64,000 nucleotides of DNA, from positions 124,001-188,000 of the forward strand of contig NZ_JAQYUS010000001.1 of assembly GCF_030686865.1 (NCBI RefSeq). Direction: 5' to 3'. Numbering within the stretch: position 1 is the first letter of the stretch; every line of letters starts with the position of its first letter. A program made the position numbers and the translations under genes. This DNA comes from Kaistella sp. SH40-3. Its GTDB lineage: Bacteria; Bacteroidota; Bacteroidia; Flavobacteriales; Weeksellaceae. Shown here in pieces: positions 58,247 through 63,738 of the stretch. The notes below the pieces were generated by a model that was not told the DNA's origin, did no database searches, and saw only the letters and a program-made list of their open reading frames with translations.

Positions 58247-58264
58247 GGTAGCCCGTAGGGGACT
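58246..58264 (-). other. Attachment site: 19-nt tRNA 3'-end fragment (attL candidate)
   Basis: The minus strand reads as the last 19 nt of a tRNA: A58 to A76, with T-stem CCCCT, acceptor ACGGGCT, discriminator A and encoded CCA. The rest of the tRNA is missing: beyond 58264 sequence no longer fits a T-loop. This is the usual remnant of integration into a tRNA gene by a tyrosine integrase, whose gene starts 170 bp away. The tRNA identity cannot be deduced from the fragment. Confidence 0.75.
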
Positions 58265-58430: not shown

Positions 58431-59795
58431 ATGGCAACAGTTAATTTCTTATTAAGATCCACAGTAAAGAAAAACGATCCGTTCACTGCTAGACTTCAAT
58501 TCTCTAATCCTTCAAAAGTAACTGAAGGAAATAAATTTGGTCTTGACTTCGTAGAATATAAAACTAAAATATTTGTATTCGATCCTGAAGAGGTAAAGGA
58601 TAAACCAATGGTTGATGGGAAATGGTATTGGCAGAATCATAAAAAACACAAGGGTAAAGATGAAAGGATTGATAAGGTTTATAAACTTCAAGAAGATATT
58701 AGAAATTTTATCCTAGAAAAATATGATCTTTCATTTCCTGAAGGAACAATATATTTTCCTACAAAAGAATGGTTACAAAAAACTATTGATGAGTATTACA
58801 ATATTCAGAATAGAACTGAAGCAAGAAAAAAGCAACAAGACAAACCACAAGATTTAATATTCCACTTCAATAATTATATCAAGTTAAAAAGCCTAGAACT
58901 AAAACCTAGAACGATTCTAAAACTTGAAGATATTAAGAATATAATTCTAGCATTTGAAACCTTCCAATCTTCAATAAAAGGATATGATTATAAAGTATTG
59001 ATTCCTGAAGTAGATGAAGAAATGAAATTTGATCTAGTTACCTATCTTCAGAATAATAAAAAGTACTCGCAGAATACTATTGCAAAAGTCATTAAAGTAA
59101 TTAGAACGGTATGTAATCACTCTACTAGATACAAAATAGAGTTAAGTCCCACCTATGTAGATTTTAGAATGGCGTACGATGAGACAGATGTTGTTTATCT
59201 ATCATTTAAGGAACTTCAAACCATTATCAATACTGAAGTACCAAAAGAACTAGAAGACGCTAAAACATGGCTCTATCTGTCTTCGTTCCTTGGGCAACGT
59301 GTATCCGATTTTATGAGATTTAATTCTAGTATGATTAGAAAAGATGGTAAAGATTATTTTATTGATTTTATTCAGGTTAAGACTGAAAAGAAAATGAGTT
59401 TATTATTACATCCTGAAGTTGTTAAGATCCTTCAAAATAATAATATGAATTTTCCTTCACCAATAAGCGAACAATTATATAATGATCAGATTAAAAAAGT
59501 TTGTGCAATTGCTGGTATAAATGAAATTATAGAAGGATCTATTTTAACTGAAGTATCTAAAGGAGTTTGGAGAAAAGTTTCAGGACATTATCCAAAATAT
59601 AAATTAGTAGGAAGTCATATTGGGAGAAAAAACTACTGTACTAATTTCTACGGTAAAATTCCCACTAGTTTAATTCTTGAAGTTTCGGGCCATACAGAAG
59701 AGAGAACCCTCCTTAGTTACATAGGAAAAAAAGATGCTACCAACTCAAAAATGTTAGGTAATTTCTATGATAAAATTAATATAACTGAAGACTAA
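58431..59795 (+). CDS. Tyrosine-type site-specific integrase
   Basis: A 454-residue integrase of the Bacteroidota type with an N-terminal arm-binding domain (1-60), a SAM-like core-binding domain (about 140-250) and a catalytic domain. Catalytic residues are R290 (LGQRVSDF), K317 (QVKTEKK), H396-x-x-R399 (SHIGRK), H421 (SGHTEERT) and nucleophile Y430 (LSYIGK). The full set indicates an active enzyme. It is the first gene inside the element, next to the tRNA fragment, and shares a 20-bp leader (58414-58433) with the 59974 gene. Confidence 0.93.
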   Translation: MATVNFLLRSTVKKNDPFTARLQFSNPSKVTEGNKFGLDFVEYKTKIFVFDPEEVKDKPMVDGKWYWQNHKKHKGKDERIDKVYKLQEDIRNFILEKYDLSFPEGTIYFPTKEWLQKTIDEYYNIQNRTEARKKQQDKPQDLIFHFNNYIKLKSLELKPRTILKLEDIKNIILAFETFQSSIKGYDYKVLIPEVDEEMKFDLVTYLQNNKKYSQNTIAKVIKVIRTVCNHSTRYKIELSPTYVDFRMAYDETDVVYLSFKELQTIINTEVPKELEDAKTWLYLSSFLGQRVSDFMRFNSSMIRKDGKDYFIDFIQVKTEKKMSLLLHPEVVKILQNNNMNFPSPISEQLYNDQIKKVCAIAGINEIIEGSILTEVSKGVWRKVSGHYPKYKLVGSHIGRKNYCTNFYGKIPTSLILEVSGHTEERTLLSYIGKKDATNSKMLGNFYDKINITED

Positions 59796-59973: not shown

Positions 59974-60705
59974 ATGAACAACGAAAATGATAAGTATAAA
60001 GGAATCCGTCAACGCATGGATTTAAATAATTTTTTCACAGTCAAATATGAGAATAAAGTAGCTGGATATGGTTGGCGTGATGGTGAAGGAAATATAACGG
60101 ATGATCCAAAGAAGGTTAAAACCAAAGTAGAAATATTTGTTGACTTTCCGATATTAGCGAAGGACGAAGATGATTTTGAAATATTGCTACAACGTGAAAT
60201 CGATTTGAGAGGCATAGGAGAAGCGGAATGCAGATCAATTATAAAAGATGACCTTCAGGATTACTTTTCTGAAATTAAGCAATATTACAAAGGTGATCAA
60301 CTAAGAACACCATCTGAAATTTCTGAACTTGAAATATTATTAAAATCATTTATTTCCTTCCTAGATCAAAGACCTAAAGAGAAAAAAGAGAAAAAAGAAG
60401 AGCAGATAAAATATAAAAACTTTGAAGATTATTTTACAACAAATATCAGAGATATTGATGGATTAAAAAAGATGATGCAGAAAGCAAAAGGAAAAGAACT
60501 ATCTGCAATAATCACAATTCTAGAACCTCTACTTCCTGAAAATATGACTAAAAAGTATTTTTACAAATCATTCAATCCAAATCTAAATGAAAGCGGTGTT
60601 AATAAATACCTTGCAAAAAATGATGATGGACATCGTCTTATTGAAACTGATGACTATGCCCAGTACATTCAAACCATCCAAAATCAACTAAATGAGTTTC
60701 TTTAA
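59974..60705 (+). CDS. Unrecognised element-encoded protein
   Basis: A 243-residue protein, not recognised. Residues 1-135 have alternating strands and helices (NNFFTVKYENKVAGYGWRDG, VEIFVDFPILAKDEDDF, AECRSIIKDDLQDYFSEIK). A highly charged linker of KEKKEKKEEQ follows at about 139-148. The C-terminal 95 residues are helical (NFEDYFTTNIRDIDGLKKMM, ELSAIITILEPLLPENMTKK, NKYLAKNDDGHRL). There is no signal or membrane segment. Its position right after the iterons suggests it could bind them, for example as initiator or repressor, but no DNA-binding motif is certain. Its leader matches the integrase leader. Confidence 0.75.
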   Translation: MNNENDKYKGIRQRMDLNNFFTVKYENKVAGYGWRDGEGNITDDPKKVKTKVEIFVDFPILAKDEDDFEILLQREIDLRGIGEAECRSIIKDDLQDYFSEIKQYYKGDQLRTPSEISELEILLKSFISFLDQRPKEKKEKKEEQIKYKNFEDYFTTNIRDIDGLKKMMQKAKGKELSAIITILEPLLPENMTKKYFYKSFNPNLNESGVNKYLAKNDDGHRLIETDDYAQYIQTIQNQLNEFL

Positions 60706-60790
60706 AAGTATTCTAGTATTCCAAAATACTTGTTAAACTTCAAAATATTTTAAGTCTTTTTATATTTACAGAGTTCAAAGAGAGCGAAAT

Positions 60791-60817
60791 AAAAAAACCG
60801 CCAACGAACGCTAGCGG
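60791..60817 (-). terminator. Terminator of the candidate small RNA
   Basis: Six-pair stem (60798-60803 with 60812-60817) followed by seven T on the minus strand; no minus-strand protein gene lies upstream that it could serve. Confidence 0.7.
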
Positions 60818-60860
60818 AAAGAGTATCAAACTAAGATTAAAGTTGGGGAACTGCTAATCT
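60791..60860 (-). ncRNA. Candidate small RNA, antisense to the leader of the HTH gene
   Basis: Minus strand: a promoter (TTG 60890-60892, 17 bp, TATCTTTG 60865-60872), then about 70 nt without ORF. It contains a stem-loop GATTA-GC-AGTT-CCCC-AACT-T-TAATC with a C4 loop. It ends in a terminator CCGCTA (minus) / TGGCGG followed by seven T (60791-60817). Promoter, compact structured body and terminator together suggest a discrete short RNA. It lies upstream of, and opposite to, the HTH/DUF3987 genes, like countertranscribed RNAs in plasmid replication control. No expression evidence is available. Confidence 0.55.
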
Positions 60861-60864
60861 TTTC

Positions 60865-60892
60865 CAAAGATACAAATTTCCAAAAGTTCCAA
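60865..60892 (-). promoter_or_regulatory. Promoter of the candidate small RNA
   Basis: TTG (60890-60892), 17-bp spacer, TATCTTTG (60865-60872) on the minus strand; spacer within the accepted 17-23 bp range. Confidence 0.55.
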
Positions 60893-60923
60893 GGCGGTTG
60901 AATAACATTAAAAAATTTAACCA

Positions 60924-61154
60924 ATGGAAAACCCATTTAGTGCCATGTATAATATGATGGCAAGTATCGATTCTAAACTAGATCAAATTCTAGGTGAAAA
61001 TTCTCAAACTTCAGATAATTCTGAACTACTTACTAAAAAGGAATACTTAAAAATCCGTAAAATTTCCGATACTACACTTTGGAGGGAAGAGAAGCGTGGA
61101 CAAATATCAGCGGTTGTTATTGGTAGCAAAAAATATTATAAACTACCAAAGTAA
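60924..61154 (+). CDS. Small helix-turn-helix (MerR/excisionase-like) protein
   Basis: A 76-residue protein. Residues 1-30 are a predicted helix (AMYNMMASIDSKLDQIL, possible dimerisation). Residues 35-76 form a winged-helix-like segment, LLTKKEYLKIRKISDTTLWR followed by REEKRGQISAVVIGSKKYYK, as in helix-turn-helix_17/excisionase proteins. It starts 32 bp right of the small RNA promoter and ends 9 bp before the DUF3987 gene, in the same operon. It may act as excisionase or as a replication regulator. Confidence 0.8.
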   Translation: MENPFSAMYNMMASIDSKLDQILGENSQTSDNSELLTKKEYLKIRKISDTTLWREEKRGQISAVVIGSKKYYKLPK

Positions 61155-61163
61155 TTAGAGGTT

Positions 61164-62525
61164 ATGAGTGCGGTAAAAAGTTTAAAAGATTCCATTAAGG
61201 AGACTTTAAACGATAAAAAAAGCGATGTACCATTGCAGGTATTCCCTGAAGTAGTGCAAAATATGATTACTGAAAAAGCGACCAAACAAAGTATTCCAAC
61301 TGAATTTCTTTTCGCTTCAGTGCTAGGTGTAATTTCAACATCAATAGGTAATACCTTCAAAGTTGAATTACTTTTTGATATGCCCACAAATGCAAGTCTA
61401 TGGATAGCAGTAGTGGGAGAAAGCGGAGAAGGCAAAACAGAAGGTATAAATAGTTTTTACAAGCCATTATTAAAAGTAGAAGCCGAGAATTATAAGAAAT
61501 ACATAGAGGAAGTTGATGCTTATAAGTTAGCATTGAAAATATTTAAAAACCTTCCAAATTCCGAACGATCAGCAGAAGATGAACCGGAACCACCAATAAG
61601 AAAACAAAGAATCCTTCAGGATGTAACGGTAGAGGCGTATGCAGATAGAATGCAAAAAAACCCGAATGGTCTAGGTAGTATTAATGACGAATTAAAAGGA
61701 TTTGTTGAAGGTGATGGACAGTATAAAGGCGGTAAAGGTAGCGATAGACAAACTAAACTAAGTATATGGAATGGTAAAACATCTATAAAAGATAGGGTGC
61801 AAGATTCTATATTTATTGAAGATGCCTTCCTTTCTGTTATTGGTGGTATTCAGATAGAAGAAGCTTCCGAAATGTTTGCGAAAATGGTATCTGATGGGTA
61901 CGCACCTAGATTTTTAATGGTAGTTGCAGAAAATACACCACAAGGTAAATGGACACTTGAAAAAGTGGATAGGAGTATAGATGAAAAATGGGAGAAAATA
62001 ATCCGTAGCATTTTAGAACTTGAAAACGCAAACTTTGAAAATAATCTAGTGACATTCAAAAGAGATGCTGGAGAGGTTTTAGTTAACTGGAGAAATTCCC
62101 AAGAAAAAGCAAGCAACTTTACAACACGTCTATTTGATGCCAAATTAAGAATATACGCCATAAGGTTATCTTTAATATTACACGTCTTAAAACGAGCCAA
62201 TGAAGGGCAATTCTATGAAGGTGATCAGATTGATAAGGAAACCGCAGAAAACGCCCTTATTTTAGTTGATTACTTCCGTAACAATGCTTTAAAAATGATT
62301 ACCAAAATGAAATTGGATGATCCTTTAGAAGTGTTGGATAAAAATAAACTGAAATTATACGATCTACTACCTGAAGAGTTCACCACTTCAGAAGGTGCGG
62401 AAATCGCTAAAACTAATGAATTACTAGGACATACCGCCTTCAGTACTTTCTTAAAAAATAAGAGACTATTTGCTAAGGTGACTAAAGGAGTTTATCAAAA
62501 ATTGATCACCGATGACAACGATTAA
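61164..62525 (+). CDS. DUF3987-type P-loop ATPase
   Basis: A 453-residue protein with Walker A GESGEGKT (85-92), SINDELKGFVE (a possible Walker B/sensor region), and VIGGIQIEEASEMF followed by APRFLMVVAE. The C-terminal part (about 385-453) is a winged-helix-like region (TSEGAEIAKTNELLGHTAFSTFLKNKRLF). DUF3987 proteins of plasmids, phages and islands are primase-helicase-like or replication-associated. It overlaps the next gene by 14 bp, so the two are co-translated. Confidence 0.88.
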   Translation: MSAVKSLKDSIKETLNDKKSDVPLQVFPEVVQNMITEKATKQSIPTEFLFASVLGVISTSIGNTFKVELLFDMPTNASLWIAVVGESGEGKTEGINSFYKPLLKVEAENYKKYIEEVDAYKLALKIFKNLPNSERSAEDEPEPPIRKQRILQDVTVEAYADRMQKNPNGLGSINDELKGFVEGDGQYKGGKGSDRQTKLSIWNGKTSIKDRVQDSIFIEDAFLSVIGGIQIEEASEMFAKMVSDGYAPRFLMVVAENTPQGKWTLEKVDRSIDEKWEKIIRSILELENANFENNLVTFKRDAGEVLVNWRNSQEKASNFTTRLFDAKLRIYAIRLSLILHVLKRANEGQFYEGDQIDKETAENALILVDYFRNNALKMITKMKLDDPLEVLDKNKLKLYDLLPEEFTTSEGAEIAKTNELLGHTAFSTFLKNKRLFAKVTKGVYQKLITDDND

Positions 62526-63738
62526 TTACAAATATAGTTTGGATAAATCTTCCAAGAAGTACCGATGCCAACAGTGCGGAAAAAAGAGTTTAGTACGTTA
62601 TGTTGATGGTGATGGTAATTTGCAGAGTGAAGAGTACGGCCGTTGTGATCGTGAGGTAAATTGTGGGTATATTCTTTATCCTGAATCTGAAGGAGAGCAG
62701 AAACCATTTATACCAAAACCACCGAAACCACAAGTTTACTTTCCTGAAGATGTATTTATTAAAACTTTGCAGAATATAAACCAAAGTAACTTATATAAAA
62801 ATCTAGTAGAATTAAAGATTCCTTCAGAAGATATTAATAAAACTCTTGAAGATTATAAAATTGGAGCCTTAACAAATGGCAAATATTCGGGAGCGGTTAC
62901 ATTTCCATTTATCGACCACCTTCAGAGAATTAATTCCGTTCAGGTGAAAATGTTTGATGAGAATAATAAGACCCAAGACCAAACATGGTTACACTCTATT
63001 CTCTACCATTATTATAAAAATAAAACTAAGATTCCTGAATGGATAACAAAGTATTATGATAATGAAAAGAAGACTAATTGCTTATTTGGCGAACATCTAC
63101 TAGATAAGTATTCTACAAAGGATATTATCATTGCAGAAAGTCCAAAGAACACCATTCTAGGAACTTTCTTTATGCCCGAATATCTTTGGATGGCTTCAGG
63201 ATCATTAAGGACATTATCGGTATCAAAACTGAAGAAATTAAGAGGGCGAAATATTCTATTGATTCCTGATACTTCGGTAGATAATGTTGCATTTGATGAG
63301 TGGAATATTATAAAAGAAAATGCAGTCGATGCCGGGCTAAACGTTAAGATGCTAACTTTTCTAGAAGACATTGCAACAATAGAGCAAAAAACCGCAGGAT
63401 ATGACATTGCAGATTATATTACTGAAGAATTGAAAAGAGAGCCTGAAACGCTTCCAATTGAGCCACCACCGCCACCGATTACGGCCCAAGTTTACACACA
63501 AGCCGAAAGGGTAAAGGTAGGACTTGAGTTCTCAACTGAAGGACTTGCAGAACTCGCAAAGAAAATCATTCCTGAAAATGATTCGGTAACCGCTAAGGAG
63601 TTAATCCAAAAACTCTATGATATTGAAGGATTAGATAAAAAAGACGCAACCGATTTGATGCTAGTAATGCGATTGAAGGAAATAATAGACAAGACCAATG
63701 ATGGCAGATACTTCCTTTTTAACTCAACACCGTATTGA
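62512..63738 (+). CDS. Zinc-finger and Toprim-like protein (primase-like, DUF6371 type)
   Basis: A 408-residue protein. An N-terminal CHC2-like zinc ribbon has C19-x2-C22 and C45-x5-C51. A Toprim-like region follows at about 195-290: IIIAESPKNTILG, LWMASGS and NILLIPDTSVDN, then DIADYI. The acidic residues of a Toprim fold are only partly conserved. The rest carries a proline-rich hinge (EPPPPPI) and a C-terminal helical domain (TAKELIQKLYDIEGLDKKDATDLM). With the overlapping DUF3987 gene it resembles a primase/helicase pair of mobile elements. Confidence 0.85.
   Translation: MTTINYKYSLDKSSKKYRCQQCGKKSLVRYVDGDGNLQSEEYGRCDREVNCGYILYPESEGEQKPFIPKPPKPQVYFPEDVFIKTLQNINQSNLYKNLVELKIPSEDINKTLEDYKIGALTNGKYSGAVTFPFIDHLQRINSVQVKMFDENNKTQDQTWLHSILYHYYKNKTKIPEWITKYYDNEKKTNCLFGEHLLDKYSTKDIIIAESPKNTILGTFFMPEYLWMASGSLRTLSVSKLKKLRGRNILLIPDTSVDNVAFDEWNIIKENAVDAGLNVKMLTFLEDIATIEQKTAGYDIADYITEELKREPETLPIEPPPPPITAQVYTQAERVKVGLEFSTEGLAELAKKIIPENDSVTAKELIQKLYDIEGLDKKDATDLMLVMRLKEIIDKTNDGRYFLFNSTPY

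Follow-up and report, generated by a model that had tools for sequence, protein, structure and literature searches.

The question raised by this locus is how a small minus-strand unit at positions 60791-60892 of the window (the whole analysed stretch of 64,000 nucleotides) might act on the HTH-DUF3987-primase operon whose leader it faces. The DNA signals support a complete antisense small-RNA unit at this place, the RNA itself being predicted. Our analysis favors, with a probability of roughly 0.7, a cis-antisense switch similar to those of pT181 and pSK41, in which an RNA of about 69 nt would repress this operon of a tyrosine-integrase element.

The predicted antisense unit and its host element

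The minus-strand promoter (60865-60892), as read from the sequence, consists of a TTG at 60892-60890, a spacer of 17 nt, and TATCTTTG at 60872-60865. It agrees with the Bacteroidota promoter consensus, TAnnTTTG for the -7 box and TTTG at about -33, as given in the accessed portion of PMC7366714. The promoter thus follows a consensus other than that of sigma-70, and it is absent from the list returned by a sigma-70 promoter scan of 1.6 kb. With the 5' end placed by assumption 5 nt past the -7 box, the predicted antisense RNA spans 60859-60791 on the minus strand and is 69 nt long, the sequence and the computed fold dividing it into a 5' stem-loop, a linker, and a terminator. The stem-loop (60835-60859, minus strand) presents CCCC at 60845-60848, and GGGG occupies these positions on the opposite, plus strand. 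The intrinsic terminator (60791-60817, minus strand), identified by a terminator scan, is composed of an 8-bp stem with a GTTC loop, CCGCTAGC-GTTC-GTTGGCGG at 60817-60798, followed by seven T at 60797-60791. A promoter, a CCCC stem-loop, and a seven-T terminator on the minus strand had been proposed by a sequence-only reading of this DNA, and direct inspection bears the proposal out. The operon itself may be transcribed from a plus-strand promoter whose candidate -7 box, TATATTTA, is at 60761-60768 and differs from TANNTTTG by one mismatch.

Considered alone, the terminator is at chance level, one being found in 1.6 kb against 0.9 expected; it is the conservation of the box together with the terminator, described below, that raises the unit above chance. 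As RNA, 121 nt of the minus strand fold more stably than 199 of 200 shuffles (z -3.3) and 126 nt of the plus strand more stably than all 200 (z -4.0). The plus-strand fold extends past the unit, to 60899, and an alternative fold spans the ATG at 60924. No family reached its gathering score in Rfam 15 over 60600-61000 of the window (18.2 bits at best, the cutoff being 50), and the nine other loci gave tRNAs only.

The likely target is the first gene of the operon (60924-61154, plus strand), an ORF of 76 aa. Neither Pfam nor NCBIfam gave a match to the protein itself; a relative in group B (see below) matches HTH_17, and the group-B profile recovers the window gene at E 4.9e-9. It is followed on the same strand by a helicase-like DUF3987 gene (61164-62525; PF13148, E 1.2e-46; PHROG DNA helicase, 6.7e-42) and by a gene with a Zn-ribbon and DUF6371 (62512-63738; PF21957 and PF19898), whose product the layout suggests to be primase-like. 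The tyrosine integrase of the element (58431-59795, plus strand; Phage_int_SAM_5, E 4.9e-5) has relatives in the genomes G267 and G302 that are 60-66% identical. The left end is marked by a 15-bp repeat, GTAGCCCGTAGGGGA at 58248-58262, a probable attL, identical to the end of the tRNA-Glu gene that lies 16.6 kb further downstream. This tRNA gene (L059:17357-17429) adjoins the gene of ribosomal protein S20, and the attachment repeats are probable. The same tRNA-Glu site is occupied by related elements of about 8.1 kb in G302 and 13.6 kb in G267, the latter with a 13-bp repeat.

The gene order of the element is tyrosine integrase, a 243-aa ORF, HTH, DUF3987, Zn-ribbon/DUF6371, and then, past the window end, a tape-measure gene. 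The 243-aa ORF (59974-60705), between the integrase and the antisense unit, has no family match above cutoff, and its single weak relative (24-25%) occupies the same position in G267. The phage tail tape-measure protein (1326 aa, L059:8161-12141 on the same contig) matches PF20155 at E 2.4e-32 and PHROG 9959 at E 1.4e-198. Among the scanned element proteins, which represent a subset of the ORFs, it is the only phage structural protein recognized, and no second tape-measure copy was found in the genome at E <= 1e-10. The tape-measure gene hints at a phage satellite. Neither Rep_trans nor RepA_N, as would mark a plasmid replicon, was found 3' of the leader; the genes there are HTH, DUF3987, and DUF6371 in an integrated element.

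Conservation of the layout among related leaders

The relatives fall into two groups. For group A, the 76-aa HTH protein was searched against 320 genomes of the family (E <= 1e-4) and gave matches in 18 genomes, comprising, beyond the window, four close loci (50-63% identical) and 14 distant ones. The unit lies directly 5' of the HTH gene in three of the four close loci (G302, G267a, and G167b) and is lost in G167a. In G167 C29 (L062:10783-10920), where the antisense segment is gone, a short inverted repeat (ACCAC...GTGGT) still precedes the HTH gene, as does a plus-strand -7 box that matches exactly; this natural loss is usable as a comparison. From the 14 distant loci, L045 (no start) and L046 (no tblastn hit) were left out, while two, G121 and G221, showed a layout matching that of the window. 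Chosen for this visible layout, the two served as seeds of group B, whose profile was run on 316 genomes and found a match at E <= 1e-7 in 104 of them. The best six group-B loci are the seeds and the new loci G031, G083, G274, and G267b, and all six carry a minus-strand terminator together with an exact minus-strand TANNTTTG box whose end lies 59-65 nt upstream of the ATG. An eleventh locus, G180, was reached via DUF3987; it has another HTH type and a layout that is similar but weaker.

A minus-strand TANNTTTG ending 58-67 nt 5' of the HTH ATG and a minus-strand terminator at 100-160 nt are found in all ten leaders, that is, the window and nine selected relatives, which are related to one another and do not include G167a with its lost segment; the distance limits were chosen after the first loci were known. 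Among shuffled leaders (300 per leader), the box appeared 42 times and the terminator 20 times, but the two never appeared together (0/3000). Neither was present at those distances in any of 40 control HTH loci, taken from 42 by omitting L096 and L131, in which the script detected no ATG start; by position, L095 and L123 are the same locus, as are L107 and L136, so that the 40 are not all distinct. When only loci chosen by protein similarity rather than by layout are counted (the four close group-A loci plus G031, G083, G274, and G267b from group B), the unit is present in seven of eight. In each of the 11 loci, the minus-strand RNA forms a more stable terminator stem than the plus-strand RNA does (Wilcoxon p 0.0005). 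Exact plus-strand TANNTTTG boxes precede the unit in eight of the ten leaders, the one of G274 only at -288, and the plus-strand -7 box is one mismatch off in the window and G167b. The earlier placement of an antisense unit opposite the operon leader is thus supported, with promoter, RNA span, and terminator recognizable as DNA signals in all ten leaders, and the covariation check proposed with it, across related elements, found the layout kept and compensating changes present.

The sequence of the unit varies while its layout remains constant in front of three different replication modules. DUF3987 proteins are encoded 3' of it in the window, in G121, and in G302, G267a, and G167b (31-62% identity to the window protein), D5_N/DUF5906 proteins in G221, G083, and G031, and an AAA_25 ATPase in G274 and G267b. 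With three kinds of replication gene behind it, the unit is not tied to one replication protein and looks like a portable regulator. On its 5' side, a phage-type integrase is present in five of the six group-B loci, the ORF at that place in G221 being without a match. Two of the genomes hold more than one such locus: G267, which is of one genus with the window genome, has two integrase elements whose antisense units are unlike each other, and in G167 one element has the unit and another lacks it.

We also considered whether the unit is universal to DUF3987 elements. This was ruled out, as 13 of 19 scanned DUF3987 loci, read by eye, are without the layout; those fitting it are the window, G302, G267a, G167b, and G121, with G180 fitting weakly. 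Four annotated Bacteroides/Parabacteroides loci have no minus-strand box and terminator at the corresponding places, and none of 18 HTH loci from an order-level search has the unit. Searches of the window HTH protein alone against genome contigs and viral contigs gave no useful matches, nor did those of the HTH protein against phages and plasmids or of DUF3987 against viral contigs. Other HTH genes (L107, L110, and L111) are preceded, about 41-64 nt before the ATG, by a short conserved hairpin in the minus direction, TTCCGA...TCGGAA followed by T, which differs from the antisense unit and is unexplained.

Predicted competing folds of the leader

The ten predicted RNAs, with their start placed 5 nt past the box, are 68-91 nt long, and each has a stem-loop at or beside the 5' end and, after a linker that in some contains an extra hairpin, a terminator. 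The sequence-only reading had suggested pairing of the CCCC loop with a complementary GGGG loop on the operon transcript, by analogy with the countertranscribed RNAs that set plasmid copy number; the present element is chromosomal. The GGGG complement is indeed present opposite the CCCC of the window, but the pair of loops is not conserved: CCCC is found in the window and G267a, is missing in G302 and G167b (the other half of the four group-A RNAs), and is absent from the 5' loop of every one of the six RNAs of group B. The C4 loop is hence ruled out as a conserved contact, and a specific C4-G4 kissing would be at most a local variant. A leader with two states is a likelier mechanism than loop-loop contact alone.

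In the computed fold of the plus strand, the base stem of the leader pairs 60796-60802 with 60893-60899, and the next helix joins 60806-60809 with 60886-60889. The 5' arm of the base stem (60796-60802, plus strand), the candidate pre-emptor, is the complement of the 3' arm of the antisense terminator. The alternative start-codon hairpin (60887-60929, plus strand) includes part of the ATG and is formed by pairing of 60896-60903 with 60915-60922 and of 60887-60891 with 60925-60929. Because 60887-60889 and 60896-60899 are needed by both states, the two are mutually exclusive in the window. In all 11 loci, the antisense terminator has its complement within the first 60 nt of the leader, and these 60 nt pair with the stretch 21-52 nt upstream of the ATG at -9 to -28 kcal/mol; partners were sought in a set interval, from -52 to -18. 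When the 5' part of the leader is omitted, the 3' part is calculated to form a hairpin at or over the ATG, and when the leader is modeled as a dimer with the antisense RNA, the start region of the window adopts the start hairpin. All folding energies were computed at 37 °C for RNA without proteins or ribosomes. In the G302 leader the closed state is nearly as stable as the open one, and the fold of G167b is the most divergent in group A (shuffle z -1.8 and -2.0). In the leaders shown, the start hairpin is not followed by a run of T, so that an intrinsic attenuator of the pT181 type is not seen.

When the antisense-covered part of the window leader is masked, the start loses 0.38 in mean unpaired probability, a change matched by 0 of 200 shuffles. 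Over the 11 loci, the mean change toward a closed start is 0.20, compared with -0.02 in 23 control HTH loci (Mann-Whitney p 2.6e-5), which represent 23 of the 24 loci L091-L114, L096 being omitted. The effect is weak in G302 (29/200 shuffles), in G083 (6/60), and in G180 (47/200 and 29/60).

The exchange of helix partners between loci provides a further comparison. For the start hairpin, the matched partners give -10.4 kcal/mol and mismatched ones -6.5 kcal/mol, with only 1 of 20000 permutations being as good; the corresponding counts are 856/20000 within group A, which is about the floor for four loci, 199/20000 within group B, and 195/20000 on the minus strand. The base stem gives 35/20000 over all loci and 11/20000 on the minus strand, and within the groups it is not significant (A 3416/20000, B 5337/20000). 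Being equally good on the minus strand, the base stem alone cannot tell the strand. The start hairpin is more stable on the plus than on the minus strand in 7 of 11 loci (4/4 in A, 2/6 in B; p 0.10). RNAalifold recovers the base stem and the inner start hairpin from the four group-A leaders, with 5 of 24 pairs doubly changed, and only a four-pair stem from the group-B MAFFT alignment. The covariation of the base stem consists of G-C in the window and G267a and A-U in G302 and G167b. Taken as predictions, these folds support a leader in which a pre-emptor competes against a start-codon hairpin, weakly so in G302, G083, and G180 and with some of the sub-tests failing.

Mechanism, alternatives, and known systems

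The favored switch would operate as follows. The antisense RNA, about 69 nt long, would be transcribed from its own minus-strand promoter. When it is missing, the 5' arm of the leader would pair 25-38 nt before the HTH ATG and leave the start open, while its pairing with that arm would free bases to fold with the ATG region, and the start would become hidden. The HTH gene would then stay untranslated and, by coupling or polarity, probably the replication genes too. The integrated element would thereby be kept quiet, and the repression would reach a second copy in trans. The DNA layout, its conservation, the minus-strand-specific terminator stem, and the coupled changes of the leader helices over the whole set are observed, and they suggest the transcription, the pairing in the cell, the effect on translation, and the role in quiescence and immunity.

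Repression of the operon by the antisense RNA could also take another route, with the leader hairpins as by-products, namely cleavage of the duplex by an RNase, early (e.g., Rho-dependent) termination, contact between the loops, or interference of the two converging promoters with each other. The converging promoters and the antisense unit are conserved, as such routes would have it, and the evidence for the switch is weak in three loci. We nevertheless consider them unlikely, since the start hairpin covaries over the set (1/20000) and the masking effect separates the loci with the unit from the controls; the lack of a T-run 3' of the start hairpin in the leaders shown speaks, in addition, against intrinsic attenuation as in pT181.

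Two further alternatives, both very improbable in our judgment, assign the conserved structure to something other than antisense control. The hairpin might work as DNA: while the element is single-stranded, RNA polymerase would use it as a promoter or origin to synthesize a primer, in the manner of F plasmid Frpo or the M13 minus origin. The long imperfect hairpin does contain the -33 and -7 boxes, and its base stem is equally good on both strands. However, a minus-biased terminator after about 70 nt fits a leader switch better, the start hairpin shows a plus-strand bias in the swap test, the distance to the HTH ATG is fixed, and no relaxase or HUH gene is present among the window-element proteins scanned, a subset of the ORFs. 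The leader might, alternatively, be a cis-acting regulator that senses a ligand or a protein, the minus-strand promoter being incidental. While the two-state fold would suit such a regulator, the retention of the minus-strand box and terminator in 10/10 leaders, the minus bias of the terminator stem in 11/11 loci, and the lack of an Rfam family at gathering score argue against it.

The cis-antisense switch has its closest counterparts in plasmids of Gram-positive bacteria. In the accessed portion of PMC5703833, RNAI of the pSK41-type staphylococcal RepA_N plasmids is described as an antisense RNA of about 80 nt, complementary to the rep leader, whose binding is proposed to induce a stem-loop that hides the start, without transcription attenuation. 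A small antisense RNA against a leader and a start-hiding stem-loop, here predicted, are thus common to both. Unlike pSK41, the present unit has a Bacteroidota promoter, resides in a chromosomally integrated element, and precedes an HTH protein rather than Rep as the first gene; its predicted RNA maps some 60-130 nt upstream of the ATG, and no sequence relation is apparent. The same portion of PMC5703833 describes, for pT181 and pIP501, a leader pre-emptor that competes with a second stem-loop by the start codon and is removed by the antisense RNA. The predicted competition between a pre-emptor and a start-adjacent stem-loop is similar here, but the second stem-loop of those plasmids acts, according to that text, mainly as a terminator, while here the start hairpin has no run of T behind it in the leaders shown.

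Within Bacteroidota, the accessed portion of PMC7366714 names RteR and DonS as the control RNAs of mobile elements and polysaccharide loci known as of 2020. DonS is a family of cis-antisense RNAs of 78-128 nt in Bacteroides that target susC genes of polysaccharide loci, and RteR, a trans-encoded RNA of 90 nt, acts on the tra operon of the Bacteroides mobile element CTnDOT. The present unit resembles the former as an antisense RNA of similar size and the latter as a small RNA of a mobile element; unlike it, neither is described in that portion with a leader switch. We found no description of such a unit in the open-access literature of PubMed Central, the scope of the search, and satellite antisense RNAs have one mention in PMC7567579, within the reference list.

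A comparison with satellites is suggested by the replication genes, since the D5_N/DUF5906 genes of three group-B loci are presumably of the kind found in P4-like primase-helicases. The immunity (CI) RNA of phage P4 silences the replication operon of a small integrative satellite; it is derived from the leader of that same operon and brings about premature termination. The unit described here differs in being antisense, with its own promoter and terminator.

A broader proposal, which we advance tentatively and hold at somewhat less than even odds, is that antisense RNA, leader switch, and HTH gene form a portable cassette that runs the quiescence and superinfection immunity of satellite-like Bacteroidota elements and has been coupled to three or more kinds of replication gene, and that its fast sequence change decides which elements can cohabit. 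The two unlike units of G267 and the pair with and without a unit in G167 are as an incompatibility role would predict, although these cases are anecdotal. If the switch is true, an RNA control of the type known from Gram-positive plasmids would govern chromosomally integrated elements of Bacteroidota, and the unit would predict which of these elements can coexist.
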